This document shows positions 6,485-63,241 of a DNA stretch of 64,000 nucleotides, piece by piece. The position numbers and the translations under genes were made by a program. The DNA comes from Candidatus Gastranaerophilales bacterium (GTDB taxonomy: Bacteria > Cyanobacteriota > Vampirovibrionia > Gastranaerophilales > Gastranaerophilaceae), in NCBI GenBank assembly GCA_947624325.1, contig CANQJT010000001.1, positions 434,001 to 498,000 of the forward strand. Reading direction: 5' to 3'. The first letter of the stretch is position 1; every line of letters begins with the position of its first letter. Below the pieces are notes generated by a model. That model saw only the letters and a program-made list of their open reading frames with translations, was not told the origin of the DNA and made no database searches.

Positions 6485-6660
6485 CTAGTGTCGCAACTAT
6501 ATGCTTGCTCCTCGCAACCGTATAGTTGCTCACCTTTTCAATATGCCACTCGCAAATTTTTACTCAGCTGACGCATACAGGCTCAAACATCCTTACTTCG
6601 TTGCGGTGTTTCGCTTTGTAACACCTTCGGCTTATCGTAAAAATTTACTCGGACAATTTA
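6485..6660. repeat. structured intergenic repeat, copy A
   Basis: A noncoding stretch less AT-rich than its surroundings with nested inverted repeats. GCAACTATA at 6493-6501 pairs with TATAGTTGC at 6521-6529. AAATTTTTAC near 6556 pairs with GTAAAAATTT near 6637. GGTGTT and AACACC form an inner hairpin around 6610-6630. Its right end (TAACACC, GGCTTAT, GTAAAA, TCGGACAA in that order) recurs at 24734-24780, so this looks like a dispersed repeat. The far end reaches the stop codon of the convergent gene at 6658. Confidence 0.45.
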
Positions 6661-16207: not shown

Positions 16208-17735
16208 ATGGAAAAGGAAAAAGATAACAATTTATTTTTAAATAAGATTTTTTATATAATAGTCGGTATTATTATTCTGTTAGGTATATATATAAGGACA
16301 TGGACTTATTTAAAAAATATACCATTTACCTCTGATGAGGCTCTTTTAGGAACAATTTTTTTCAAAACACCCGTTTTGAAATTTTTTAATGAGATTGATA
16401 CCATAGTTAAAATTCCGCCTTTATGGGGTATATTAGAAAAAATTATAACAAATATTTTTGGTCCTTCTTTTTTTACTTATAGACTAATTCCATATTTAAC
16501 ATCAATACTTTCTGTAATTGCATTTTTCTTTTTATTAAAAAATATATTTAAAAGTAAAGTAGCAATAATTATCGGCTTAATCTTGTTTATAATAAATGTT
16601 CCGCTGGTCTTTTTTACTGTTAATTTCAGACCATATGAATCAGATGTATTTATATGTATTTTATTACTTTTAAGTTATAAATATGTAAGTTTTAAAGAAA
16701 TTACCCCCCCCCCATTGCATTTTGTACACTTTAATAAGCATATTAACTATTTTGTTCTCATTTCCTTCAATATTTATAATCCCTGCAATAATTTTTGCTA
16801 AAAGTATTGAAGAAAAAAAGTTTAACAAAAAATCTCTGATTATTTTATCAGGAATTATTATCTGTTGTTTATACCTTTATTTTATTGATATGAAGACTTA
16901 TCAATTTATGAATAATTATTGGCAAACAGTAGAATACGGTTTTATAAATCCATCCTTCAACTCAATAAAAAGCATTATTATTCAAGCTATTATTTATACA
17001 TACACAGGTACTAATTTATTATGGATACAGTTAACTCTTTGCTGTTTGGGATTTATAAATTTCTTTAAACAAAAAAAACAATACAGATATTTAATTTTGT
17101 TTATTATACTTTTTTCATTAGTTGCCGGTACATTAAAGATATATCCCGTTGGAAGAAGACATATAATCTATCTTATTCCGATAATAATTATATATACAGT
17201 AGCAATTATTGATACTCAGTGGGAAATTATAAAAAACACTTTTTTAAAGAATTTAATTAATATGTTAATAGCCATATTAATAGTATTTACAATGGAAATA
17301 AAAATAACAAACATATTCCCTTTTAATCTTGATACATACTATTATGAAATGGATACTATAGATACAAGATATGAAATGGACCAAAATTTATATAAACTAA
17401 TTGATGAAAGTAAAGAAAATGATTTTTTCTTAATACCAAATGAAATAACAATAATGATGTATTTTTATAACGTTATGTACAATTTTAATAAATTTCTAAA
17501 TACAATAAGTTTTCCTTATGAAACAATTGATGTTCAAGAGGTAGAAGATTTCACTCTTGAAAAAATTCAGATTAAACCAAAGGATATAACTTTATATATT
17601 GTCTCTGTAAAAAAGTCAAATTCGATAATACCTGATGAAACATTTATAGAAGATATATTAAAAAAGCAAAATTATAAATACGAAAAACAAAGTGATGATT
17701 GTATGTATATATTTAAAGTCTACAATAAAACTTAA
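16208..17735 (+). pseudogene. phase-variable membrane glycosyltransferase (GT39/ArnT-like), OFF at a C10 tract
   Basis: Two frames make one gene. Frame one (16208-16801) gives the N-terminus with TM helices and the acidic TSDEALL loop (Asp43, Glu44) typical of GT-C enzymes. Frame two runs from the tract to 17735; the TTG at 16722 is merely its first possible start. The break is a run of ten Cs at 16704-16713. Removing one C joins them into 508 codons, and the joined sequence (KEITPPHCILYTLIS) aligns without gap to the intact 507-residue paralog at 61718-63241. Both share SFPSIFIIPAI. Such enzymes move sugars from polyprenyl carriers onto glycans or lipids at the inner membrane. ACGGAG precedes ATG 16208. 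Read as a switched-off phase-variable gene; assembly error is the alternative. Confidence 0.85.
16704..16713 (+). repeat. homopolymeric C10 tract (slipped-strand site)
   Basis: Ten consecutive Cs inside a glycosyltransferase gene in a very AT-rich background, where C runs above five are otherwise nearly absent. The tract has the length and place of a contingency-locus mononucleotide repeat. At ten it leaves the gene out of frame; nine or twelve would restore it. Confidence 0.9.
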
Positions 17736-49548: not shown

Positions 49549-50400
49549 ATGTATAAATTTGGTTTAATCGGATACCCTTTATCACATTCAATGTCAAAAG
49601 TAATTCATGAAGCCGCTTTTAAATCCATTGGAGAAGAAGGTTCTTATGAAATACTTGAAACTCCGCCTGAGGATTTAGTTCCGAGAATAAAATATTTAAA
49701 ATCAAATAATTATCAAGGATTTAATGTAACAATCCCGTTAAAAGTGCCTGTAACATTATTTCTTTCCGAAGTTGATAATGTTGCCAATATTGCCAAAAGC
49801 TCAAATACAATAAAAATTCTGCCTGACGGAACTTTAATAGGATACAATACGGATGTATACGGATTTGTAGAAGCAATACCAAAAGAATTCAGAGGGCAAT
49901 TACAAGGTTCAACAACAGCTGTACTAGGAAACGGCGGAGCCGCAAGAGCTATTGGGGTCGGTCTTTCTATATTAAAAGTTAAAAGAATTGATTTCTTTGT
50001 AAGAAATATAATTAATGCAACATCTATGACGGAAGCTTTAAAAAAGAACTTTCCCACAGTTGAAATAAATTGCTATCAAATAGAAAGCCTTAAAGATTTA
50101 TCAAAATATTCAATGCTTGTAAATACAACTCCTATAGGAATGAGAGGGAAAGCAATGGGTTTATCGCCCGTTGAAGAAGATGTTGTTTCAACAATGAATA
50201 AACAAGGGATTATATATGATATAGTATATAATCCGCTTAAAACAGAATTAATAAAATATGCAAAGAAATATAAAATTAATACAATACAAGGACTTGATAT
50301 GCTTATTTATCAAGGGGCAAAAGCATTTGAAATATGGACGGGCAAAAAACCCGATGTATTAAAAATGAAAATAGCTGCACTGGAAGAAATGGCAGATTAA
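49549..50400 (+). CDS. aroE: shikimate dehydrogenase
   Basis: NADP-dependent reduction of 3-dehydroshikimate to shikimate, aromatic amino acid pathway. 283 residues. Seen: GLIGYPLSHSMSKVIHEAAF, the substrate-binding NVTIPLKVPV, the Rossmann loop GNGGAARAIGVGL, NTTPIGM, YDIVYNPLKTELI and GLDMLIYQGAKAFEIWTG. All are typical. It starts three bases after topA and ends in a four-base stop overlap (TTAA) with fliI on the other strand. Confidence 0.96.
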   Translation: MYKFGLIGYPLSHSMSKVIHEAAFKSIGEEGSYEILETPPEDLVPRIKYLKSNNYQGFNVTIPLKVPVTLFLSEVDNVANIAKSSNTIKILPDGTLIGYNTDVYGFVEAIPKEFRGQLQGSTTAVLGNGGAARAIGVGLSILKVKRIDFFVRNIINATSMTEALKKNFPTVEINCYQIESLKDLSKYSMLVNTTPIGMRGKAMGLSPVEEDVVSTMNKQGIIYDIVYNPLKTELIKYAKKYKINTIQGLDMLIYQGAKAFEIWTGKKPDVLKMKIAALEEMAD

Positions 50401-51746
50401 ATATCAACATCTTTCATCATTGAAATTAAAGTTGAAATTGTATTTTCCATAGTAACACTATCAGATGTCCGCTGTTGAAGAAATGCATTAATTTGAGGCA
50501 TAAGTTCAATAGCTATATCAAGTTTATGATTTGAACCTGCATTATACATACCTACATCAATCAGGTCTTTATTTTCACGGTACAAAGACATTAACTGACG
50601 CATTTTATAAGCTGCTTGTTTATGCTCTTCAGTTACAATTTCAGTAAATAAACGGCTTATACTGCCTAAAACATCAATAGCAGGATAATGATTCATTTCC
50701 GCAATTTTTCGTGATAAAAATATATGCCCGTCAACAATACCTCTTACGGTATCAACAACAGGGTCATTAATATCATCACCTTCCATAAGAACGGTATATA
50801 AAGCTGTAATAGAACCTCTGGGACTGTTACCGCTTCGTTCAAGGACTCTTTGAAGCCAAGAGAATATTGAAGGCGGATAACCTTTGATTGTAGGAGGTTC
50901 ACCAATAGACAGTCCTACTTCTCTTCCTGCCATTGCGCATCTTGTTACTGTATCTGTCATTAAGAAAACTTTTTTCCCTTTATCTCTAAAATACTCGCAT
51001 ACTGCAGTAGCGGATAAAAGACACTTTTGCCTGATTAACGGCGGCTGGTCACCTGTAGAGCATACGATTACGGACTTTCGCATACCTTCTTCGCCAAGTG
51101 AATTTTCAATAAATTCCTTAACTTCTCTGCCACGTTCACCAATCAGCGCAACTACATTGACATCTGCATCTGAATTTCTTGCAATCATACCGAGCATAGT
51201 ACTTTTACCTACACCCGAACCTGCGAACAGCCCCATTCTTTGACCTGCTCCGAGTGTCAGCATTGAATCTATAGCTCTTACACCCGTAGAAAACATTTGG
51301 GTTATAATAGGTCTATCGAATGCGCCGGGAGGAGGATTATCAATATTTGTCCATTCCGCACCTCTCGTATCCATAGGCTTTCCGTCAATAGGTTCACCCA
51401 AAGGGCTTATTAACCTGCCCAAAAGAAAATCACCTACCGGAATACTTATTGCTTTCCCTGTTGTCGTAACTAAACTTCCTTGACCAATTCCTGCTCCGTC
51501 ATATAATAACAGCAGCTGTGCATTTTCACCTTTAAAAGCAACAACCTCAGCAGGTTTCTTTTCACCTTGATAGTTCTCAATAAAGCATAAATCACCTATT
51601 TTCAGCCCGGGCAATTTAACTTCTACAGTTAACCCTAAAAGCTTAGATACACTGCCTTTATATGAATACAATTTTGTTGAATTAATTATTTCAAAGGCTT
51701 GTTTTTTAACAAATTCTATTGATTTTTCAGTTGATTGTTCAAGCAT
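50397..51746 (-). CDS. fliI: flagellum-specific ATPase FliI
   Basis: F1-beta-like ATPase of the flagellar type III export apparatus. Start 51746, four bases after the flhA stop, is chosen; an ATG at 51779 overlaps flhA. About 449 residues. Seen: Walker A GLFAGSGVGKSTMLGMIA, VALIGERGREVKEF, Walker B KVFLMTDTVTRCAMAGREV, GYPPSIFSWLQRVLERSGN split, and the C-terminal DVGMYNAGSNHKLDIAI. It works with FliH (encoded two genes up) to load substrates to FlhA. Last gene of the flagellar operon seen here. FliI over SctN by context. Confidence 0.94.
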   Translation of the reverse strand: MLEQSTEKSIEFVKKQAFEIINSTKLYSYKGSVSKLLGLTVEVKLPGLKIGDLCFIENYQGEKKPAEVVAFKGENAQLLLLYDGAGIGQGSLVTTTGKAISIPVGDFLLGRLISPLGEPIDGKPMDTRGAEWTNIDNPPPGAFDRPIITQMFSTGVRAIDSMLTLGAGQRMGLFAGSGVGKSTMLGMIARNSDADVNVVALIGERGREVKEFIENSLGEEGMRKSVIVCSTGDQPPLIRQKCLLSATAVCEYFRDKGKKVFLMTDTVTRCAMAGREVGLSIGEPPTIKGYPPSIFSWLQRVLERSGNSPRGSITALYTVLMEGDDINDPVVDTVRGIVDGHIFLSRKIAEMNHYPAIDVLGSISRLFTEIVTEEHKQAAYKMRQLMSLYRENKDLIDVGMYNAGSNHKLDIAIELMPQINAFLQQRTSDSVTMENTISTLISMMKDVDI

Positions 51747-51750
51747 AATC

Positions 51751-53853
51751 CTACTCAAAATTATAATTTGCCGCTTCACCTATTGTATCAACGGCTTCTA
51801 CTCTAATATCCGTTATAAGTTCAGAATATGAAATAACAACTATTGTCGGAATATGTCTTTCCAAAAGCTGGTATAAAGGCAGTCTTATTCTTGGAGAACA
51901 TAAAATAACAGGTTGTACATTTATACTCTGGTGTGCTCTTATTAAGGTTGAAGCGGCTGATTCAATAAGCTCCTGAACTTGCATTGGATTTAAAAGGAAC
52001 ATTGTTCCGAGCTCTGTTCTCTGGCAGCTGTCATCAAGGGTTTTTTCCCATTCGGGAGATAATGTAAGAGCATACATTACTTTATCCTGATTACAATTAG
52101 CAAGACAAATTTGTCTGCCGAGTGCCGCTCTTAATCTTTCCGATAAAATATCCGGTTCTTTTGAAAATCTTGCATAATCGCATAATCTTTCAAAAATATA
52201 AATAATATCTTTTATTGAAACTTTTTCTCTGATTAAGTTTACAAAAATCTTTCTTAAATCGCTTGTAGAAATAATTGTAGGTACAAGGTCATTAACAAGA
52301 GTCGGGTCTTGGCTTTTAACAAGCTCCATAAGCTTTAATACATCGGTCTTTGTCATAATTTCATCAACATATTTTCTTACGCAATCCTGAAGATGGGTAA
52401 TAATAACATCAACCGAATCAACAGCCACAACCTGTTTTTGTTTCTTCAAAAATTCGGTATCCATCCAATAAGCTTGGGTTTGGAAAGTAGGATCAATACC
52501 TATTATTGCATCTTTAGGCACTTCCATGCCTGATGCATCCCACTGATCAGCAATAACCATACTTTTTTTAGGATAGACAGTACCCGTTGCAACAGTATTA
52601 CCACGAACAGAAATCATATACTCATTTGCACCGATAGCGGAAGAATCCATAATTCTAATATTAGGAATAATATAACCGAGTTCATCAGTTACTCTTTGTC
52701 TCAAAGCAGCAATTTTAGGAAGCAAAAGCCCATCTTGTTCAGGGTCGGCAATTTCCAATAAACCCGTACCGACTTGAAGATTTAAAACATCGACACCTAA
52801 TCTTTCATACATTCTGTTAGGGTTAGTCAAATCGCTCATACTTTTCTTCACGGCATCAAGCTGCCCGAGTTGAGCCTGTACATCTTTATTAACTGACACA
52901 ATAAGAAATGCAATCAATATTACTGCCGCATATATAGTGAATGTATACCAAGGAAGTCCGGTAATAAAGCTGGTTAATGCAATTAATACAAGGAAGACCA
53001 CCGTAAATATTAAGCTTGAAGGTTTACTCAAAATTTGACCGGCCAAATCACCGCCTAATGAACCACCTGAAGCTGTAGATCTGGTCATTACGATACCTGC
53101 TGCAATTGCCATTAACAACGAAGGCAATTGAGCGGCAAGACCGTCACCAACTGTTAATACCGTATATTTTTGAACGGCTTCACCGGGTTGAAGTCCCTGC
53201 ATTAAAATACCGATGCACAATCCGCCGACAATATTAATTATAACGATGATAATACCTGCCATAGTATCACCTTTAACGAACTTCATAGCACCATCCATTG
53301 AACCGTATAAATTTGATTCTCGCTGTAAATCTTCTCTACGTTTTACAGCCTCATCAGGTGATATAAGCCCCGCATTAAAGTCTGCGTCAATAGTCATTTG
53401 CTTACCTGGCATAGCATCTAATGCAAACCTTGCAGCAACTTCGGCGATACGTTCCGAACCTTTTGTTATTACCATAAACTGAACAACAGTTATGATGATA
53501 AATATTACAAATCCGACGATTAAGTTACCTCCGGTTACGAAATTACCGAAAGCATCGATAACTTCACCTGCTTCACCTTTCGCCAATATCAATCTTGTTG
53601 ATGCAATTGACAAAACAAGCCTGAACATTGTACCTATTAATATAATAGAAGGAAATGCAGCCAGTTCTAAAGGTCTTTGTATATACAAAGAAATCATTAA
53701 AAGCAGAATGCCAAGTGTAATATTAAAACTTATGGCGAAATTAACTACTACCGGAGGAAGCTCGCATATTAACAGCACAATCAGCAGTATTACAAATATT
53801 GCCAATCCTATTTCACTGAATATTGAAGGTTTTAACCCTTGCGGCTGAGCCAT
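51751..53853 (-). CDS. flhA: flagellar export gate protein FlhA
   Basis: Core membrane component of the flagellar protein export gate. 700 residues, normal length. The N-terminal half has eight TM helices and the highly conserved FHIPEP loop: VAARFALDAMPGKQM, DFNAGLISPDEAVKRRED and SNLYGSMDGAMKFVKGD. The C-terminal half is the cytoplasmic nonameric ring. FlhB and FliP/Q/R are not in the window. AGGAGG lies upstream of the ATG with a long spacer. Confidence 0.96.
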   Translation of the reverse strand: MAQPQGLKPSIFSEIGLAIFVILLIVLLICELPPVVVNFAISFNITLGILLLMISLYIQRPLELAAFPSIILIGTMFRLVLSIASTRLILAKGEAGEVIDAFGNFVTGGNLIVGFVIFIIITVVQFMVITKGSERIAEVAARFALDAMPGKQMTIDADFNAGLISPDEAVKRREDLQRESNLYGSMDGAMKFVKGDTMAGIIIVIINIVGGLCIGILMQGLQPGEAVQKYTVLTVGDGLAAQLPSLLMAIAAGIVMTRSTASGGSLGGDLAGQILSKPSSLIFTVVFLVLIALTSFITGLPWYTFTIYAAVILIAFLIVSVNKDVQAQLGQLDAVKKSMSDLTNPNRMYERLGVDVLNLQVGTGLLEIADPEQDGLLLPKIAALRQRVTDELGYIIPNIRIMDSSAIGANEYMISVRGNTVATGTVYPKKSMVIADQWDASGMEVPKDAIIGIDPTFQTQAYWMDTEFLKKQKQVVAVDSVDVIITHLQDCVRKYVDEIMTKTDVLKLMELVKSQDPTLVNDLVPTIISTSDLRKIFVNLIREKVSIKDIIYIFERLCDYARFSKEPDILSERLRAALGRQICLANCNQDKVMYALTLSPEWEKTLDDSCQRTELGTMFLLNPMQVQELIESAASTLIRAHQSINVQPVILCSPRIRLPLYQLLERHIPTIVVISYSELITDIRVEAVDTIGEAANYNFE

Positions 53854-53858
53854 TTATG

Positions 53859-54635
53859 TTAGTTTTCCTCCTTATCGTTCAGAGCTTTTTTTACAATTTC
53901 CAATTGTGTTTCAATTGATGCATCTATTATTCCGTTAGAAGTTTCAATTATTACTCCGCCGTCTTTTATTGTATTATCGGGAATAACAATTACAGTTGTT
54001 TCATAATAGTCTGATGAAATTATTTCGGGAAGTTTATCTTTTACAATTTCAACATCTTTGGGCATAACTTTTAATGTAATTCTATTTTCGGTTTTATTAA
54101 CTTCTTCCAACGCATTTTTTATAATTTCTATAGTTGCAGATGAATCAGTTTGTGTTTCTTTTTTAATTATTTTTTGAGCAATTTCAACGGCAATATCTAA
54201 AATACATTCAGAAACTTTATTAAATACCTCTGTTTTATAGCCGTAGAATTCAGAAAGTTTAGCTTTTAATTCATTAATTGCATCTTCTGCCTGATTAATT
54301 CCGTCTTTATATCCTTCTTGTCTTGCAGCTTCTTTAATTGCTGCAGCTTCTTCCTGTGCTCTTGATATAATATTTCTGTCCTGAGTTCTTCTGTATCCTC
54401 TTCTTCTTGAACCTTCCCTTCTTTCTTGCCTTTGTTCAAATTTAATATTATCTAATGTTAAATCAAAGTCACTGTTATCATTTTTTTCAAGTTCTTGTTG
54501 ATTATTTATATTTTCTTCTTCAACAGATAATTCTGAAGCATTTTCGGAATTTACTTCCGTAACTGCATTATCTTCAGTTTCATTTATAATTTCACTTATT
54601 TTTTTTATATCTGTATATTTTTTCTTAATTATCAT
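53859..54635 (-). CDS. fliH: flagellar assembly protein FliH
   Basis: Regulator of FliI and part of the export stalk. 258 residues. Residues 1-70 are highly acidic and disordered, 72-97 basic (RRREGSRRRGYRRTQ-like RREGSRRRGYRRT), then a coiled coil (EEAAAIKEAARQEGYKDGIN) and a C-terminal FliH/V-ATPase E domain (CILDIAVEIAQKIIKKE, then LKVMPKDVEIVKDKLP). Long basic/acidic N-terminus is unusual. Overlaps the FliG-like gene by 11 bases. Position between fliG-like and flhA supports the call. Confidence 0.87.
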   Translation of the reverse strand: MIIKKKYTDIKKISEIINETEDNAVTEVNSENASELSVEEENINNQQELEKNDNSDFDLTLDNIKFEQRQERREGSRRRGYRRTQDRNIISRAQEEAAAIKEAARQEGYKDGINQAEDAINELKAKLSEFYGYKTEVFNKVSECILDIAVEIAQKIIKKETQTDSSATIEIIKNALEEVNKTENRITLKVMPKDVEIVKDKLPEIISSDYYETTVIVIPDNTIKDGGVIIETSNGIIDASIETQLEIVKKALNDKEEN

Positions 54636-55617
54636 TTATTTTTTCTTCTATGGATGTAACCAGTGACTGTAAGACGTACGGTGAAAATGTTTCTGCAGCA
54701 GGAAATGAATTATCCAAAATAAAATCTCTTACGGATTCTCTTTCATTACAAGCCGCTTTACTTAATACTTCAATAGGTACTAATTTTTTATATTTGTAGT
54801 GTTTTTGCAGTATTCGACCTACATTTATTGTATCTGAAGGAGGAATAATTTTTTTTATTTCTTCCAATGCCTTAATTATTACATTGTGATCAATTTTATC
54901 TTCAAGATTGCTCATTTTCATATAATTTTGTACGTGAACAATATCATTTTTATCTAATACAGAAAGAATTTGCGCTACCTTATCTTCGGGCAGTCGTTTT
55001 AATATTATTGCAAGTGATGCCAATTTTAATACTTTTTTGTCATTTACTTGAGAACTGTCGTTGTTTTGCTGAACTTGATTTAAAGCAGCTTCTTCTTGAT
55101 TTTTTTGAACCATATCATTCAAATTAGAAGTATTTACTGCTTTTTCATAATCTTGCGGTGATAAAATACCTTGTTTTACGAGTTTTTGCAGTTCATCATT
55201 GTATATTTTTTTAACTTTCTCTTCAATTAAACTAATTAAAGCATCTTGAGGCATTTTTTTAATAATGGCAAGTTTTGCGGTATTAAAAATATTTGCCGCA
55301 ATAGCTTGAAGAATAGGCTCTCTGTTTTTTACGGGAATTGAAGATTTAATTAAATCAATTAATTTATGAAAAGTCCATTCGCCTATAAATTGAGTTACAA
55401 GGCATGCCTGTTCCGCATTAAATTTTATTTGAGGGTCATTACTTAAAGCTTCACCTGACATATAACAAAATTTTCTTACGGTTTCTACTATAGTTTTTTT
55501 ATCAACATCAGTTAAACCTTCCGGTACGGCATTTGTACCCTTTTGTTTCAGTATTTCCATTGCTTGATTTGCTAAATCAACGGCAAATGCTTTATAATCG
55601 AACCCTGCTATAGGCAT
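54625..55617 (-). CDS. FliG-like motor protein, divergent
   Basis: 330 residues in the position of fliG, between fliF and fliH. The segment 198-258 (LKLASLAIILKRLPEDKVAQ, then VLDKNDIVHVQNYMKMSNLE) resembles the N-terminal FliG domain that binds FliF (LL-x-LP-x-x-x-A-x-x-L-x). The rest is helical and not clearly FliG: residues 1-165 have an unmatched helical domain, and 280-330 lack the charged FEDLxxLDDRxIQ torque helix. It may be a highly divergent FliG or a different MS-ring adaptor. AAGGA precedes the ATG. Confidence 0.65.
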   Translation of the reverse strand: MPIAGFDYKAFAVDLANQAMEILKQKGTNAVPEGLTDVDKKTIVETVRKFCYMSGEALSNDPQIKFNAEQACLVTQFIGEWTFHKLIDLIKSSIPVKNREPILQAIAANIFNTAKLAIIKKMPQDALISLIEEKVKKIYNDELQKLVKQGILSPQDYEKAVNTSNLNDMVQKNQEEAALNQVQQNNDSSQVNDKKVLKLASLAIILKRLPEDKVAQILSVLDKNDIVHVQNYMKMSNLEDKIDHNVIIKALEEIKKIIPPSDTINVGRILQKHYKYKKLVPIEVLSKAACNERESVRDFILDNSFPAAETFSPYVLQSLVTSIEEKINDN

Positions 55618-55632
55618 ATTATCCTTACCCCA

Positions 55633-57291
55633 TTATGATTTTTCTATCCAGCTTTTTAATTCCTTTAAGGTTTTATCGCTGTCTGCTTGAGCCATATCTG
55701 TCGAAACATCATCAATTACTTCAGACAAGGAAGTTTCTGTTTCGGATTTTTTTTCAATTTGAAGCTGTTTCTGTTGTTCCAAAAGCTCCTGAGTTAAAAT
55801 TGACTGTTTCTCAATCAATTCTGCAGCTTTTAAATTAACATCAACTATTTGTTTTTCTTGCTGCTCCGTTCTTATTTTTAAATTATTTAGTTCTTCCAAT
55901 TGTTCACTTGCGGAATCTTTTAATTTTTTATGTACAAACACAAACCCTACTATCAACCCTGCAACTATTAAAACAAGCGCAAGCCACCAAGGATTGCCTG
56001 ATGCATCGGGAGTCGGAAGATTAACGGGTCTGTCTGATGCAAGATACGGGTCAATAGTTTCCGCATATGCTATAGATACATCATCAGCCGATACTTTTGG
56101 CGATGCAGCAGAAGCAACTTGTGCTTTAAGTTCATCTTCGGTCATATTTGGGGGCATTGCATCAGCATTCATTGTAACAGCTATTGATATCTTTTCAATA
56201 ATTCCTGTTTTATAATATTTTGAAGTATGTGTTTTGCCAACACCGTAACTTGTTTCTGTTGCTGTTCTTTCATAATTTTTATTTTGGGTGGAAGTTGATG
56301 CGGAATTTTGAAGTCCGTTAGGCAAATATATACTTACTGCATCAGAACCTTTACTTGAATCTTGAGAATTGTCACCAAGACCTTCTTTAAATACTTGTTC
56401 CGTCAATGCCGTTTTATCAGCAGGATCATATTTAATGCTTGTTTCTTCAACAGGAACCTGATTTAAAAATGTACTTACTGTTACTACATAATTTCCTTTG
56501 CCTAATAACATATCCAGCTGAGCTGCAACTTTATTCTGCATATATGCATCATTTTCCTGTAATCTTGATATTTGATCATCCAAAGATTTTACAAGACTGC
56601 TGTACACATTTCCGTTAGAATCCGTTATTGATATATTTTCTGCGGTTAAATCAGCAACACTGCCTATTAACAAGCTTTTTATTGCTTTTATTACCGATGC
56701 ATCCAGCCTTACACCGCTTGCAACAGTAAGCATAACAGTTGCATTTATCGGTTTTTTATCAGCCTTAAACATTGAATTTTCAGGAATGGTAATAAGTACA
56801 GATGCGTTATCAATATTAGGCATTTGTCTTATCAACCTTGAAAGTTCACCGTTGACCGCCCTTGCAAGTTTTATTCTTTTGTCTTCTCTTGTTGAGGTAA
56901 AATCGCTTTTATCAAAAATTTCAAGTCCTACATTTTGATCAATTAGACCGCTCTTAACAACAGCCAACAAAGCGGAATCTCTGTCTGTATTTGTATATTT
57001 ACCTGCTTCTAAAAATACCGTTACTTTTGAACCGTCTATACTTCTTTTTGCATGTATACCGTTTCTTGCAAGCAGAGTTTGAATTTCAATAGCTTTACCC
57101 TGATTATCGGTTGTTACAATATCAAATTGTTCTTTCTGCATTTTTTCAACCGCTTGCGACGATTGTTTACCTTTACCGCCGGAGGCGGATACTGCCATAA
57201 TCAAAATAATTATAAAAATCAACAAAACTCCTCCGCCAACTACGGAGTATAACAAAGTTTTATTTTTTAATAATTCTTTTAACTTATCCAT
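55633..57291 (-). CDS. fliF: flagellar MS-ring protein FliF
   Basis: Inner-membrane MS ring of the flagellar basal body. 552 residues. Seen: TM1 at about 14-34 (LYSVVGGGVLLIFIIILIMA), ring domains RBM1-3 (AVNGELSRLIRQMPNIDNAS, then VLITIP), a beta-collar region at 270-350, TM2 at about 435-457 (PWWLALVLIVAGLIVGFVF) and a charged cytoplasmic tail with a coiled coil. ATG 57291 has AGGGA. The C-terminal tail should dock the FliG-type protein encoded next; it is long and Glu-rich here. Confidence 0.93.
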   Translation of the reverse strand: MDKLKELLKNKTLLYSVVGGGVLLIFIIILIMAVSASGGKGKQSSQAVEKMQKEQFDIVTTDNQGKAIEIQTLLARNGIHAKRSIDGSKVTVFLEAGKYTNTDRDSALLAVVKSGLIDQNVGLEIFDKSDFTSTREDKRIKLARAVNGELSRLIRQMPNIDNASVLITIPENSMFKADKKPINATVMLTVASGVRLDASVIKAIKSLLIGSVADLTAENISITDSNGNVYSSLVKSLDDQISRLQENDAYMQNKVAAQLDMLLGKGNYVVTVSTFLNQVPVEETSIKYDPADKTALTEQVFKEGLGDNSQDSSKGSDAVSIYLPNGLQNSASTSTQNKNYERTATETSYGVGKTHTSKYYKTGIIEKISIAVTMNADAMPPNMTEDELKAQVASAASPKVSADDVSIAYAETIDPYLASDRPVNLPTPDASGNPWWLALVLIVAGLIVGFVFVHKKLKDSASEQLEELNNLKIRTEQQEKQIVDVNLKAAELIEKQSILTQELLEQQKQLQIEKKSETETSLSEVIDDVSTDMAQADSDKTLKELKSWIEKS

Positions 57292-57364
57292 AAATCCCTA
57301 ATCTTATACTTACTATCAATTGATATTATACTATTTTTTTTTATAACAGGTAACTTCTTAACAC

Positions 57365-57706
57365 TTATATAGAAATGTTCATTACGGCTGTATAAGCACT
57401 TACAACTTTTGATGTAACCTGAGTTGCAAGAGTCAAGCCTAAATCAGCTTTTGCTATTGCCGTTGTTACATCATGGATATCTACTTCACTGTCACCCATC
57501 ATTTGCCTGTTTAATAATTGATCAGGTTTATCTATCTCATTGTTAATTTTACTGACAAGTCCTGAAAGAACTGTTTTAAAATCGCTTCCCTGTGAATCAT
57601 TAAGCGAACTTACACCAAATCCTTTTTGGGAAAAGTCATCAATCTGCATAGAGGAATTGATATTTGAAAATATATTTACATTCGGAACCAATCTGTTTTC
57701 TATCAT
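57365..57706 (-). CDS. fliE: flagellar hook-basal body protein FliE
   Basis: Junction protein between the MS ring and the rod. 113 residues. Seen: a disordered N-terminus, DSQGSDFKTVLSGLVSKINN, and the conserved C-terminal half MMGDSEVDIHDVTTAIAKAD with LGLTLATQVTSKVVSAYTAV, the FliE signature. GAAAGGG precedes the ATG. It sits upstream of fliF as in many operons. Confidence 0.93.
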   Translation of the reverse strand: MIENRLVPNVNIFSNINSSMQIDDFSQKGFGVSSLNDSQGSDFKTVLSGLVSKINNEIDKPDQLLNRQMMGDSEVDIHDVTTAIAKADLGLTLATQVTSKVVSAYTAVMNISI

Positions 57707-57718
57707 ATATATCCCTTT

Positions 57719-58429
57719 CTATAGGTAATTTGCAAGAATATTTTTTACGTAATTTTGAGTTTCTCTAAAAGGAGGCACTCCTTCATACTTATCAACATTT
57801 CCCGGCCCCGCATTATATGCAGCCAGAGCGAGAACAACATTTCCGTTATATTTCTGCATCATGCTTTTAAGATATCTTACACCGCCGTCAACATTTTGAA
57901 CCGGATTAAAAGGATCACTAACACCTAAGGACTTTGCCGTAGAGGGCATTAATTGCATTAATCCGAGAGCGCCTGCTGATGATTTAGCATTGGGGTTATA
58001 CCCGGACTCCTGCTTAATGACCGCATTTACAAGTTTTTCATCCATTCCGTGTTTTTTGGCAATTTTTGATATCATATCTTTGATTTGTGACTTATCCGCC
58101 TTTATTGGAATATAAGGAAGAGAGATTTCGTCTGAATCATCATATAAGTCAGAATCGAAATCTAATGCACTTAAATTTACCGCATTGACATTTTTTTGAG
58201 TTAATTCACCGAATTTAATTTTATTATCATTATTGTTAACATTAAATCTTGTGTGAACATTTAATGAAGATTTCATAACATCTTCAAATGTATTTAGTTC
58301 AAGAGGCTGATTAGGTTCTTGAATTTTAGATGTTCTTGTTTGAACATAATTGTCAATTTGTCTTGCTCTTTGAATTGCTTGAGCCTGACCTGAAGAATTT
58401 AAAAGATTTTGAATCATCCCTGTAAACAC
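57719..58429 (-). CDS. SLT-family lytic transglycosylase (flagellar)
   Basis: 236 residues. N-terminal 1-110 is unstructured and polar; residues 118-236 are an SLT/lysozyme domain. Catalytic Glu141 in IKQESGYNP, GALGLMQLMPSTAKSLGV, NVDGGVRYLKSMM and ALAAYNAGPGNVDKY complete the family signature. No signal peptide is evident, so export through the flagellar apparatus itself is plausible, as for FlgJ-type hydrolases that open peptidoglycan for the rod. The start is GTG 58429, with ATG 58417 as another. It is placed between flgC and fliE, which points to a flagellar role. Confidence 0.88.
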   Translation of the reverse strand: MFTGMIQNLLNSSGQAQAIQRARQIDNYVQTRTSKIQEPNQPLELNTFEDVMKSSLNVHTRFNVNNNDNKIKFGELTQKNVNAVNLSALDFDSDLYDDSDEISLPYIPIKADKSQIKDMISKIAKKHGMDEKLVNAVIKQESGYNPNAKSSAGALGLMQLMPSTAKSLGVSDPFNPVQNVDGGVRYLKSMMQKYNGNVVLALAAYNAGPGNVDKYEGVPPFRETQNYVKNILANYL

Positions 58430-58448
58430 TTATCCGCATCCCCTATTA

Positions 58449-58892
58449 TTATGTACCAATCGATGCAGCCCTGTCCGCCATCGATTTTGTCATTGTAATG
58501 ATTGCCAAACTGGCTTCATATGCTCTTTGAGCCATTATAGCATCCGTTATTTCAACTAACGGGTCTACATTTGATGCTCTTATATATCCGTTTTTATCTG
58601 CATCCGGATGACCGGGTTTATATAGTTTTTCTCCTAATGTCGGATCTTCAACAACACCCGATAATGCAACACTGCCTGATGCATATGGCATAGTACCTGC
58701 ACCAAAGACAGACTCTTTCATCTGGTTCATTACACTCAGAAATGAAGTTCTGTCTGTAGATACCACCATTGGTATTTTTCTTACATAATTAGGTGTATCA
58801 ATATTAGCAATATTTTTTGAATTAATATCTAATCTTGCACCGTGTACTTTTAGGCCGTCACAGCCTACATTCATTGCGCTGAATATTCCCAT
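58449..58892 (-). CDS. flgC: flagellar basal-body rod protein FlgC
   Basis: Proximal rod subunit. 147 residues, standard size. Seen: the N-terminal rod motif ARLDINSKNIANIDTPNYVRK (split: ARLDINSKNIANIDTPN), the FlgC-type NVDPLVEITDAIMAQRAYEA and a C-terminal helix. ATG overlaps the flgB stop by one base. It follows flgB in the usual order. Confidence 0.95.
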   Translation of the reverse strand: MGIFSAMNVGCDGLKVHGARLDINSKNIANIDTPNYVRKIPMVVSTDRTSFLSVMNQMKESVFGAGTMPYASGSVALSGVVEDPTLGEKLYKPGHPDADKNGYIRASNVDPLVEITDAIMAQRAYEASLAIITMTKSMADRAASIGT

Positions 58893-59242
58893 TAGCCGTT
58901 ACCCATATTTATTACAGTTCTCATTTCAGTTATCAAAGAGGTCATCCTCCTTGTTGCTATTGTATATAATATAGAGTTTTTCTGAATTTCAGATAACTCT
59001 TCCGCAGGATTTATTTTTTGTTCGGTTGTTTCAATCGTTACGGGAGAAGGTCCCATTTTTGCCGCAAGCTTTGTTTCCAACGGGCTTGATATTCCGCCCA
59101 AATACTGAGAAAATGATATATCTTTTCTTCTGTAATTCGGAGTATGCATGTTTGCAACATTTGAAGAAAGAGCTTTATGTCTTTCAGCAATTAAATCTAA
59201 TGCATGTAATGTTGAAGATATTGAATTTTCAGGATTTATCAT
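58892..59242 (-). CDS. flgB: flagellar basal-body rod protein FlgB
   Basis: Proximal rod subunit. 116 residues. Seen: LIAERHKALSSNVANMHTPN and YRRKDISFSQYLGG near the N-terminus, and the C-terminal ILYTIATRRMTSLITEMRTVI. GAAGGTG precedes the ATG. Typical flgB-flgC pairing. Fifteen bases after the flgG-like gene. Confidence 0.94.
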   Translation of the reverse strand: MINPENSISSTLHALDLIAERHKALSSNVANMHTPNYRRKDISFSQYLGGISSPLETKLAAKMGPSPVTIETTEQKINPAEELSEIQKNSILYTIATRRMTSLITEMRTVINMGNG

Positions 59243-59256
59243 TTACTCACCTTCTT

Positions 59257-59970
59257 TTATTGATTCAACTGTAATGATCTTGAATACATTTCATTTACTG
59301 TTTGCATAATTTTGAAACTTGCAAGCATAGAAGCATTTAATCTCATCATTAAACTTACATCATTAATCATGTCTACGTTTGTAATTTCTAAATTTCTTTG
59401 TTTAAAATTATTATGATTTTTGATTAAAACAGGTTCACCTGATTCTGCAGTTAAATAAAATTTATTTCCGTCGCCTTTTTTTAAGCCTTCGGGATTTTTA
59501 AAGTTAACAAGAGGAATTGTACCTACACATTCTCTTTTTGTACCATCCGTTGAAAATATTTCAACTCTGCCGTCCGCTTTAACTTCAAAATTTTCATAAT
59601 TTACGGGTAATTGTATGCCGTCACCGACCAAATGACCGTCATTGGTAATTAAATAACCGTCTTTATCTAATTTCAAAGAACCGTCACGGGTATATGAAAC
59701 ATCACCTGTCGGAGATGTAACAGGAATAAATCCTAAGCCGTTTATTGCTATATCAAAATCTCTGGAGGTGGTTTGTATTGCACCTTGAGAAAAATCAGTT
59801 CTTGCAACACCCGTTAAATAACCGTTTTCATCAAGAACCTGTTCAAACCTGACAGCTTTATATCCGCTTGTATTATAGTTTGCGATGTTTGTAGATATAT
59901 AACTCATCGCATCAAACTGTTGTTCTGCGTTAATTACACCTTTATTGATTATACCTTGAATTGTTGTCAT
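59257..59970 (-). CDS. flagellar rod protein, FlgG-like
   Basis: 237-residue member of the FlgE/F/G family. Seen: the N-terminal AMSYISTNIANYNTSGYKAV (residues 21-40) with the ANxNTxGYK motif, QGAIQTTSRDFDIAINGLGF, YTRDGSLKLDKDGYLITNDG, and the C-terminal NVDMINDVSLMMRLNASMLA with a helix to the end. Length and DFDIAINGLGFF-type match favour a distal rod protein (FlgG), but FlgF is not excluded. The next gene upstream is a second member of the family. Confidence 0.87.
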   Translation of the reverse strand: MTTIQGIINKGVINAEQQFDAMSYISTNIANYNTSGYKAVRFEQVLDENGYLTGVARTDFSQGAIQTTSRDFDIAINGLGFIPVTSPTGDVSYTRDGSLKLDKDGYLITNDGHLVGDGIQLPVNYENFEVKADGRVEIFSTDGTKRECVGTIPLVNFKNPEGLKKGDGNKFYLTAESGEPVLIKNHNNFKQRNLEITNVDMINDVSLMMRLNASMLASFKIMQTVNEMYSRSLQLNQ

Positions 59971-59981
59971 TAATTACCTTT

Positions 59982-60671
59982 CTAACTTCCGAGTGCTGAA
60001 ATTGTTCTTTGTAAAAGTGAATTTTGCATCTGATACAACTGCCTGTTTGCCTCAAATGTTTTAGGATATAACATAGCTTCCATAAATTCGGTTTCCAATG
60101 AAACATTTGAATACTCGTTATATTTTTGTCTTACATTAGGTGCTATAACAGCAACGCCATCTTGAGTAACAACAGACAAGGTGCCTGCCGTCTCAAATTT
60201 TCTTGTTTTATTATTCAAAACCCTTACAACACCATTTAAATCAATTGTTATATCATCCAATTTATCGGGAACAAAAGGCAGAACCAAAGGAGTCCCCATA
60301 TTTGTAAGCACCTTCGCTCCATCCATTGTAAGAATTCCGCCATTTTTATCCATCATAAATCTACCGTCTCTGGTAAGTTTTATACCTTCATCTGATTGAA
60401 CCTGAAAATACCCCTTTTCTGCCAGAGCAACATCCAAAGGATTTTCACTGTAGAATAATCTTCCTACCGTATCATCAATGGTTGTGGACAATGCATCATC
60501 GCCAATATATTCGGCAAAAGAAGATACAACCGGAATTTTTCTTTGATAACCGACTTTATCAAAGCCTGTGATATTCTCGTTTGCAATACCCATAAGCATC
60601 ATCTGCATTCTCATGGCTCTGATGTTCTGAACAATTCCCGGTTCCGTAAAATGTACACTGCCGTTTATCAT
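59982..60671 (-). CDS. flagellar rod protein, FlgF-like
   Basis: 229-residue FlgE/F/G family member, first gene of the flagellar operon. Seen: MLMGIANENITGFDKVGYQR (motif with ANENITGFDKVG), PLDVALAEKGYFQVQSDEGI, KLTRDGRFMMDKNGGILTMDG split, and C-terminal EFMEAMLYPKTFEANRQLYQ. The motif departs from ANxNTxGYK (ITGFDKVG), as in FlgF-like proteins. AAAGGG precedes the ATG. Assigning FlgF versus FlgG is tentative. Confidence 0.83.
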   Translation of the reverse strand: MINGSVHFTEPGIVQNIRAMRMQMMLMGIANENITGFDKVGYQRKIPVVSSFAEYIGDDALSTTIDDTVGRLFYSENPLDVALAEKGYFQVQSDEGIKLTRDGRFMMDKNGGILTMDGAKVLTNMGTPLVLPFVPDKLDDITIDLNGVVRVLNNKTRKFETAGTLSVVTQDGVAVIAPNVRQKYNEYSNVSLETEFMEAMLYPKTFEANRQLYQMQNSLLQRTISALGS

Positions 60672-60844: not shown

Positions 60845-61714
60845 ATGAATTTAAAAAAGATATTTTCTGTCATAATAATTTTATTTTTATTTAGTTTAAA
60901 AGCAGAAGCAATAAAAATAGGTCTAAAAACAGATGCAAAAGAAATTAAAATTGCATCTTCCGTACCTGCTCAGATTTATGACGGATTTAAAGATAAATTA
61001 TTATATGAAATTACTCCGATGAAGGTATATGAGTTTAACAGAAAAGGAAATCAATTATCTATTGTAATAAACAAAAAAGATGTAGGATTAGGAACAAATC
61101 AAGTTATAATACGAACAAAAAAAACCGGTTATCTGTGTTCCAAAAGAGCCTGGTATCGGGGTGATTTTATTATAAACAATATGGGTTCAGGCTTAACATT
61201 AATAAACAACGTACCATTAGAAGACTATTTGAAAGGTGTAGTTCCTTCAGAAATGCCTTCTAAGTGGAATGAAGAAGCATTAAAAGCTCAGGCAATTGCA
61301 GCAAGAAGTTATGCTGTTGCAACAAGAAACGCAGGTAAACATGCATCTAAAGGGTTTGACCTTGTTGATACTACAGCAGATCAAGTATATGGCGGAGCCA
61401 GTGCCGAAAAACCTTCCACTACAAAAGCCGTAAAAGATACTAAAGGAATTGTTCTTGTTCAGGATAAAAAAGTTTTACCGACATACTACCACGCAAGTTC
61501 AGGCGGACAAACAAAAGTTTGGAACTCCGGCAGTTCGTTTCTTCAATCTGTTCCTTCTTTTGACACAGACACTAAGAAAAACGGACACGGAGTGGGTATG
61601 AGCCAGCACGGTGCAAATAATTTAGCGGCACAAGGTTTAAATGCATATCAAATACTTAATTATTTTTATAAAGATTTTAAATTTGCAAAACTCTCTGATA
61701 ATTGGGACATTTAA
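60845..61714 (+). CDS. SpoIID/LytB-family protein, compact form
   Basis: 289 residues with a signal peptide (1-22). SpoIID-type proteins are lytic transglycosylases that act on peptidoglycan stripped of stem peptides. Seen: LEDYLKGVVPSEMPSKWNEE (125-144, Glu136 as candidate acid), ALKAQAIAARSYAVA, TTADQVYGG, YYHASSGGQT (214-223), NGHGVGMSQHGANNLAAQG (247-265). The stretch normally separating the last two motifs, about 80-100 residues, is almost absent here (QSVPSFDTDTKK). It is divergent from the flagellar operon and convergent with the glycosyltransferase. Confidence 0.9.
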   Translation: MNLKKIFSVIIILFLFSLKAEAIKIGLKTDAKEIKIASSVPAQIYDGFKDKLLYEITPMKVYEFNRKGNQLSIVINKKDVGLGTNQVIIRTKKTGYLCSKRAWYRGDFIINNMGSGLTLINNVPLEDYLKGVVPSEMPSKWNEEALKAQAIAARSYAVATRNAGKHASKGFDLVDTTADQVYGGASAEKPSTTKAVKDTKGIVLVQDKKVLPTYYHASSGGQTKVWNSGSSFLQSVPSFDTDTKKNGHGVGMSQHGANNLAAQGLNAYQILNYFYKDFKFAKLSDNWDI

Positions 61715-61717
61715 TTA

Positions 61718-63241
61718 TTAATTATATACTTTATACAAATATGTCCCCATATAATTATTATTATATATTTTTTGGTAATTTTTTTTATTTTTTATCAGAT
61801 ATTCCTCAATAAAATTTGCTTTTGGTGATTCTATAAAATGTTTTCTATATTGCCCCATTATCCAAGTGTTTGTATTTTCTCTACAGTTTTCTAAATATTT
61901 TATCGTTACTTCTTTGCTGTCATCATCAAAATTATATATTTTGTATTTATATTTTTTATCTATTCCAAATATTTTTGAATAAACCTTAATATAGGCTTGA
62001 AACCCAAAATGAGTTAGTATTTCATCATTTTCTTGATTATAATTTTCTATAAGATATTTTAGTTCTTTTTTAATTTCTTTTCTATCTTCTAAAGTATTAA
62101 AATATGATATCATATCAATTATTTGGTTTTCTGATTTATTTATATAAGGTATTTGGTATAAGTTCATACTATAAACCATAATAACAATTAATAATATATT
62201 CAAATAATATTTTAATTTGTTATTTAAAAAATAGTTTATATCAAAATTTTTAACCATAATGCATATAGTAATAGGATATAAAAATAATAAAAATCTGGGG
62301 TGTAGCGGATAAAGTTTCATAAGAGAACTAAAAATCACTAATAGTATTATCAACAAATATATTATACTTTCTCTTTTTTTCTTTATGATAAATACGGTTA
62401 TACCCGTCAATATAAGCAGTATTCTTGTAATTAGCACTGTTAATGTAATATTATCTGAATATATCTCTTTATAGTTGGCAAACAATTCAGGTATCTGATT
62501 AAATTGAAGTAAAAAATTTTCACTGGTACTCCAATAATCAACCAGAAAAGCATAATTATTAATATCAGAATAATACAAATATAATCCGGCAATCCCCCCC
62601 CCCATTCCTATCCAAATACAATTATAATTTATATGCCTTTCTTCAAACATTTTTGCAAAAACAATTGCAGGAATTATAAATATTGAAGGAAATGAAAGTA
62701 ATACAAATAACATTGAAATAATACCATACAATATTGCCTTGGAAGCTGATATTTTAAATAATTCAATTTTTTTATAAAGAAGAAGTAAAACAATACAAAG
62801 CAGAACATCCAATGAATATGGTTTACATTCTGCGCTGTAATATATTAAATAAGAACTTATTGAAAAAATTAAGAAACCCGTAATAATCCCTATTTGGTTT
62901 TTAATATTAGTTTTTAGAAAAATAAAAAATAAGGGTAACGAAATTAATCCTGCTATAAAAGAAATAAAACGAAGACTTAAAAGATTAAATCCTGCTATTT
63001 TTGTTATTAAAAATACTAAGCAACAAAACAGAGGAGGCGCTTTTTGATAATAATCCAATGGTAAAAACAGCTCCGGTAATTCTCTATTTACAAAAGATGA
63101 ACATAAAAGCATTTCATCCCAAAATAAAGGAATTTGAGCAGAATATAACTTAATTCTGCAATATATACCATATACTAATATAATCAACAAAATTATATAA
63201 AATATTAACTTAGGTATTAAAATTGTTTTTTTCATTTTCAA
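61718..63241 (-). CDS. phase-variable membrane glycosyltransferase (GT39/ArnT-like), ON
   Basis: 507 residues, 10-12 TM helices and a soluble C-terminal 110 residues: a GT-C fold enzyme. PLFWDEML (38-45, Asp42 and Glu43) is the acidic first loop of ArnT/PMT-like enzymes. SFPSIFIIPAIVFAK lies in the middle. The gene is intact although it runs through a G10 tract (plus-strand C10 at 62594-62603) that encodes part of GMGGGIAG near residue 212. Paralog of 16208-17735, which is out of frame. A change of one G would truncate this protein in its middle. Likely target is LPS or another surface glycan; sugar unknown. Confidence 0.87.
   Translation of the reverse strand: MKMKKTILIPKLIFYIILLIILVYGIYCRIKLYSAQIPLFWDEMLLCSSFVNRELPELFLPLDYYQKAPPLFCCLVFLITKIAGFNLLSLRFISFIAGLISLPLFFIFLKTNIKNQIGIITGFLIFSISSYLIYYSAECKPYSLDVLLCIVLLLLYKKIELFKISASKAILYGIISMLFVLLSFPSIFIIPAIVFAKMFEERHINYNCIWIGMGGGIAGLYLYYSDINNYAFLVDYWSTSENFLLQFNQIPELFANYKEIYSDNITLTVLITRILLILTGITVFIIKKKRESIIYLLIILLVIFSSLMKLYPLHPRFLLFLYPITICIMVKNFDINYFLNNKLKYYLNILLIVIMVYSMNLYQIPYINKSENQIIDMISYFNTLEDRKEIKKELKYLIENYNQENDEILTHFGFQAYIKVYSKIFGIDKKYKYKIYNFDDDSKEVTIKYLENCRENTNTWIMGQYRKHFIESPKANFIEEYLIKNKKNYQKIYNNNYMGTYLYKVYN
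62594..62603 (-). repeat. homopolymeric G10 tract (slipped-strand site)
   Basis: Ten Cs on the plus strand, ten Gs in the coding strand, inside the glycosyltransferase gene. In this sequence it is in frame. Its location in the protein (about residue 212) differs from the tract in the paralog (about residue 166), so the two tracts arose or were kept independently. Confidence 0.9.

Follow-up and report, generated by a model that had tools for sequence, protein, structure and literature searches.

The minus strand of the window (the whole 64,000-nucleotide stretch of DNA that was analysed) carries at positions 61718–63241 an uninterrupted gene coding for a 507-aa glycosyltransferase-like protein with a predicted GT-C fold. 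Within this gene lies a ten-base homopolymer at 62594–62603, which reads exactly CCCCCCCCCC (C10) on the plus strand and G10 on the coding strand, where it falls in codons 213–216 (ATG GGG GGG GGG), within a predicted membrane helix (residues 208–225). A sequence-only reading of this DNA had described a ten-base, in-frame run within an intact glycosyltransferase paralogue, and this description is borne out. The gene is in frame as assembled (ON), and this was the only allele seen. With 9 or 11 G's, its product is predicted to end after 266 or 225 codons, respectively, instead of 507. The assembly that holds the window comprises 1.98 Mb in 20 contigs and is 98.9% complete. It belongs to the Gastranaerophilales, an order of non-photosynthetic relatives of the cyanobacteria, and its TopA is 96% identical to those of the Candidatus Gastranaerophilales MAGs Lapin-004 bin44 and Lapin-032 bin58.

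The window contains two C10 runs (62594–62603 and 16704–16713), and its next longest run of G or C is 5 nucleotides. A run model built on the window predicts 0.05 runs of at least 9 per window, against the 2 seen, and the six G8 matches in the window were reached in none of 100 shuffles. In the genes of the window GGG is used for 11% of glycines, which makes three consecutive GGG codons unlikely (~0.001). We considered whether the tract might instead encode a conserved glycine segment, and this was ruled out by an alignment with 27 family members, none of which carries GGG at this place; the relatives' residues there read FSGIALAG, FIGIALAG or LSGVLFS. The glycines at the tract are thus not a conserved feature of the protein, and the phase-variation reading survives the comparison of the GMGGGIAG segment with relatives that had been proposed as a check on it. 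No signal of RNA structure was detected at the 62594 tract (z −0.5).

The 507-aa protein scores 20.7 bits against Pfam PMT_2 (PF13231), below the gathering cut-off of 26.1, and membership of that family was dropped. An AlphaFold2 model built with 28 family members (pLDDT 87.8, pTM 0.90) gave leading structural matches that were all GT-C enzymes (STT3/PglB (OST), PMT, ArnT, ALG and Aft), with Z of 17–21 over 340–450 residues for OST, PMT and ArnT. VIA-align and Foldseek both supported the GT-C fold and singled out no one subfamily. Asp42 is invariant in the 28 family sequences and lies near what would be, by predicted membrane placement, the first extracytoplasmic loop. The protein thus resembles STT3/PglB, PMT and ArnT in fold and in having an acidic residue by the first extracytoplasmic loop, but shares only 7–13% identity with them. 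On the strength of the model, we assign it a GT-C (polyprenyl-phosphate-sugar) fold. Outside the cytoplasmic membrane, the enzyme would probably take a sugar from a polyprenyl-phosphate carrier and attach it to a surface glycan or glycoprotein. Genes of the lipid A and Kdo pathways are also present in the window (LpxB, LpxI, a cytidylyltransferase and SIS-CBS), which suggests an LPS-bearing envelope.

On one side, the glycosyltransferase gene is flanked by a SpoIID-like gene (60845–61714, plus strand) and on the other by a long ORF. In a sister species (locus L200) the next gene follows the SpoIID-like gene directly, with no glycosyltransferase between them. In Lapin-032 bin58 the SpoIID-like gene and the long ORF adjoin, and in Lapin-004 bin44 the glycosyltransferase is also missing from the stretch compared. 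The gene was thus either gained here or lost in the Lapin relatives. No orthologue was found at the same site in the nearest species, and a scan of the named genomes found no direct orthologue, the best match within the genus being 40%. The tract at 62594 can therefore not be followed across species.

The second C10 run of the window (16704–16713, plus strand, which is here the coding strand) lies in a GT-C paralogue at 16208–17735. The run splits this paralogue into an N-terminal part of 197 aa (16208–16801) and an otherwise intact C-terminal part of 337 aa (16722–17735), both on the plus strand, which are 33% (E 2e-16) and 30% (E 3e-10) identical, respectively, to the 61718–63241 product. 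Removal of one base at the tract yields 508 codons, the family length, compared to 197 as assembled. That one paralogue is ON and the other OFF, as had been noted from the sequence, is therefore confirmed, the latter losing its frame at the tract and nowhere else. On contig C4, two tandem paralogues carry C10 and C9 tracts at the place in the gene that corresponds to the 16704 tract, and two further GT-C paralogues have ordinary sequence there. In all, tracts occur in 6 of about 16 GT-C paralogues of the genome, at several different positions. The proposal that two paralogues with separate switches give four combinations holds insofar as both tracts are real, but it understates the system, which extends to these six paralogues and to 58 tracts genome-wide, promoter-spacer tracts included.

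An alternative explanation is that the tract is static, a poly-G run produced by chance or mutational bias that happens to lie in frame, and that the paralogue is an ordinary pseudogene. This is unlikely, because the OFF gene is broken at the tract alone and is otherwise of full length, and because the six tract-bearing GT-C paralogues compare with ~0.7 expected if the 58 tracts were placed at random over the genome.

The GT-C family genes of relatives also contain, inside or at the edge of the gene, an in-frame repeat of ~110–190 bp in either orientation (L186:873–1064, L185:9–119 and L121:1948–2058), a fragment of which lies in the window at 6518–6559. This repeat is reminiscent of the in-frame palindromic elements of Rickettsia.

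Across the genome we counted 58 distinct G/C runs of at least 9 nucleotides (33 of length 9, 20 of length 10 and 5 of length 11), where the run model built on the window predicts ~1.5 per genome. This excess of about 40-fold, which falls largely in surface-gene classes, further argues against a static tract. The tracts are clustered: 37 of the 58 have another tract within 5 kb, compared to a random mean of 14. In 29 cases a tract is flanked on either side by 60 or more open codons; the two sides share a frame at 19 of these tracts and are out of frame at the other 10. Tract genes include those for epimerases, a GDP-mannose dehydratase-like protein, polysaccharide pyruvyltransferase, GT92, GT2 and the GT-C paralogues, and also those for an acyltransferase, FkbM-type and other methyltransferases, hexapeptide transferases, nucleotidyl- and phosphotransferases, radical-SAM enzymes and pilin-like proteins. 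In the pilin-like (N_methyl) genes, a poly-C tract lies about five codons after the ATG (L055:3747–4451, L056:2059–2670 and L058:1378–2124). By way of a qualitative comparison, the only glycosyltransferase among 30 ordinary window genes scanned was LpxB, a housekeeping enzyme. The tract genes are thus largely glycan-modifying and pilin-like, and the 58 runs together have the appearance of an extensive series of switches that randomly turn surface sugars and surface proteins on or off.

Nine tracts of the genome sit in the arrangement TTGNNN...G9-11...TAAAAGTGGTATAAT or in closely similar ones. Of 41 genomes from the genus, 14 contain the core motif, G7-TAAAANTGGTATAAT; the reversed control gave no matches. 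Altogether, 34 distinct promoter sites carry a tract 8–11 nucleotides long, and most of the variation lies in the spacing between a −35-like box and an extended −10. The assignment of the −35 box is putative, and from the sequence pattern we infer that spacer length would affect expression. Genes behind this repeated promoter include those for Kelch-repeat proteins. The promoter is followed by a conserved leader (ACTTTGTTTACaaatt..GGTgtttttATG) that is common to different downstream genes (L040, L043, L052, L053 and, in relatives, L137–L166); promoter and leader together look like a copied expression cassette. On contig C6, two promoter tracts 2.2 kb apart (L053:5563 and 7798) are identical in tract and 150-bp flanks, and each lies upstream of a 409-aa Kelch-like gene. 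This pair is either a recent tandem duplication or an assembly duplicate.

Tract lengths were compared in 13 homologous, non-identical tract pairs (flank identity of at least 80%) drawn from the genome under study and from two sister species. A single-base difference was seen in four pairs, a difference of three in-frame bases in one and a substitution at the tract edge in two; the remaining six have tracts of the same length. In a tandem duplicate at L038, whose flanks are 95% identical, copy 1 (C9) stays open across the tract, while copy 2 (C10) runs into a stop shortly past the prolines. One-base differences were also seen at L040/L203, L205/L239 and L227/L254. These data show that tract length changes over evolution at tracts other than the one at 62594; the rate of switching within a population is a separate matter. 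The six pairs of equal length would fit a static tract, and the finding that only 4 of the 13 pairs differ by a single base counts against a contingency locus.

Altogether, we consider it very likely that the G10 run belongs to the simple-sequence contingency (phase-variation) tracts. During replication, slipped-strand mispairing would add or drop a G; ten G's would keep the 507-codon glycosyltransferase ON and 9 or 11 would turn it OFF, so that a population would carry reversible mixtures of ON and OFF cells. Most of the 58 tracts would act in the same way, through the reading frame within an ORF, whereas at least nine would act by altering how far apart the −35-like box and the extended −10 of the repeated promoter lie. 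Both slippage in the living population and a surface phenotype are what we infer from these patterns.

Slippage might instead take place chiefly while the G-run is transcribed or translated, in which case a fixed DNA length would give a mixture of products and DNA switching would be minor. Polymerase slippage is possible at long homopolymers, with a precedent in the poly-A tracts of Buchnera (PMC2831843), but this mechanism leaves unexplained both the promoter-spacer tracts and the differences in DNA length between duplicates, and we regard it as improbable. Sequencing or assembly artefacts, whether two-colour poly-G or homopolymer error, have also to be weighed, and a one-base length error could swap the ON and OFF labels. 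Some MAGs of relatives do carry very long poly-G at contig ends (for example G013:C108:1–32), which is likely a two-colour sequencing artefact. The tracts described here are 9–11 nucleotides long, lie for the most part well inside contigs and include G as well as C runs, and genomes assembled independently of each other share homologous tracts. All of this makes an artefact very improbable as their source.

We counted distinct tracts per genome from forward and reversed-control matches, checked against the tract list of this genome. In 170 genomes of the family the number of tracts ranges from 0 to 176 (median 13), with at least 20 in 68 genomes and at least 50 in 38, although some counts include poly-G at contig ends, which inflates raw G9 numbers. 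In 22 genomes from other families of the order, the number is at most 6. Within the genus, several sister species have 0 tracts and others more than 100. Runs of G9+ occur in photosynthetic cyanobacteria as well; given the larger genomes of these organisms, the counts are not comparable as they stand.

Loss of mismatch repair was considered as a cause of the tracts and rejected. By gene presence, MutS1 and MutL both occur in this genome, scoring over the curated cut-off, as do MutS1 in 39 and MutL in 37 of the 41 genomes of the genus. Since both are found in nearly all genomes of the genus, a lack of mismatch repair does not account for the tracts. A MutL over the cut-off was not found in G032, G016, G002 and G027, with no clear relation to tract number: genomes with no mutL hit include both tract-rich (G032) and tract-poor (G016, G002) ones. 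Because MutS1 and MutL are present, the slippage rate is expected to be lower than in Campylobacter, a point that weighs against the contingency reading.

In Campylobacter jejuni, which has no working mismatch repair, 18–39 genes are phase-variable, and G/C tracts occur both within genes and in intergenic stretches (PMC8355987). The present system is similar in that G/C tracts of an AT-rich gut bacterium lie mostly in ORFs, with a minority intergenic, and are clustered; the Campylobacter genes are glycan, flagellar and capsule genes (PMC8355987). It differs in tract number (58 here and up to 176 in the family), in the repeated promoter-spacer class and in mismatch repair, both mutS1 and mutL genes having been found. 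In Neisseria meningitidis, which has mutS, a poly-G tract between the −35 and −10 of porA changes the level of expression, and a poly-G tract in the ORF of the glucosyltransferase gene lgtG switches a surface sugar (PMC3639595). Both arrangements, a promoter spacer and a glycosyltransferase ORF with mutS kept, recur here. In contrast to Neisseria, the promoter occurs at 9 places in this one genome, where its −10 is extended (TGG-TATAAT), a conserved leader follows, and the genes behind it code for Kelch-type and other proteins, in an unrelated lineage. In a survey of 99 prokaryotic genomes, poly-G and poly-C tracts were generally under-represented, with exceptions (PMC2831843).

Among the papers searched, none joined Gastranaerophilales with phase variation, an absence that is no proof of novelty; for Melainabacteria and phase variation, the search returned one flagellin paper, in which the two terms are unrelated. 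The reading that fits the tracts best is that of simple-sequence contingency loci, an established type of system, here in a lineage for which no description of them was found. Taken as a whole, the family might have a poly-G phase-variation repertoire that ranks among the largest known (up to ~176 tracts of at least 9 in ~2 Mb), with MutS/MutL kept, translational switches combined with a dispersed, copied promoter cassette, and gain and loss between sister species; we put this forward tentatively, as a possibility somewhat short of even.

The Gastranaerophilales are uncultured gut residents, and almost nothing is known of how they interact with host or phage. With a phase-variable surface repertoire of this size, strains would be expected to differ in their glycans and pilin-like proteins. 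A genus in which sister species have either 0 or more than 100 tracts, nearly all with mismatch-repair genes, offers a natural comparison for what drives gain and loss of such repertoires. For annotation, many 'pseudogenes' of these MAGs may be OFF alleles. Elsewhere in the window, a block of flagellar genes at 50397–60671 codes for FlhA, FliF, a rod or hook protein of the FlgE/F/G type and an export ATPase.
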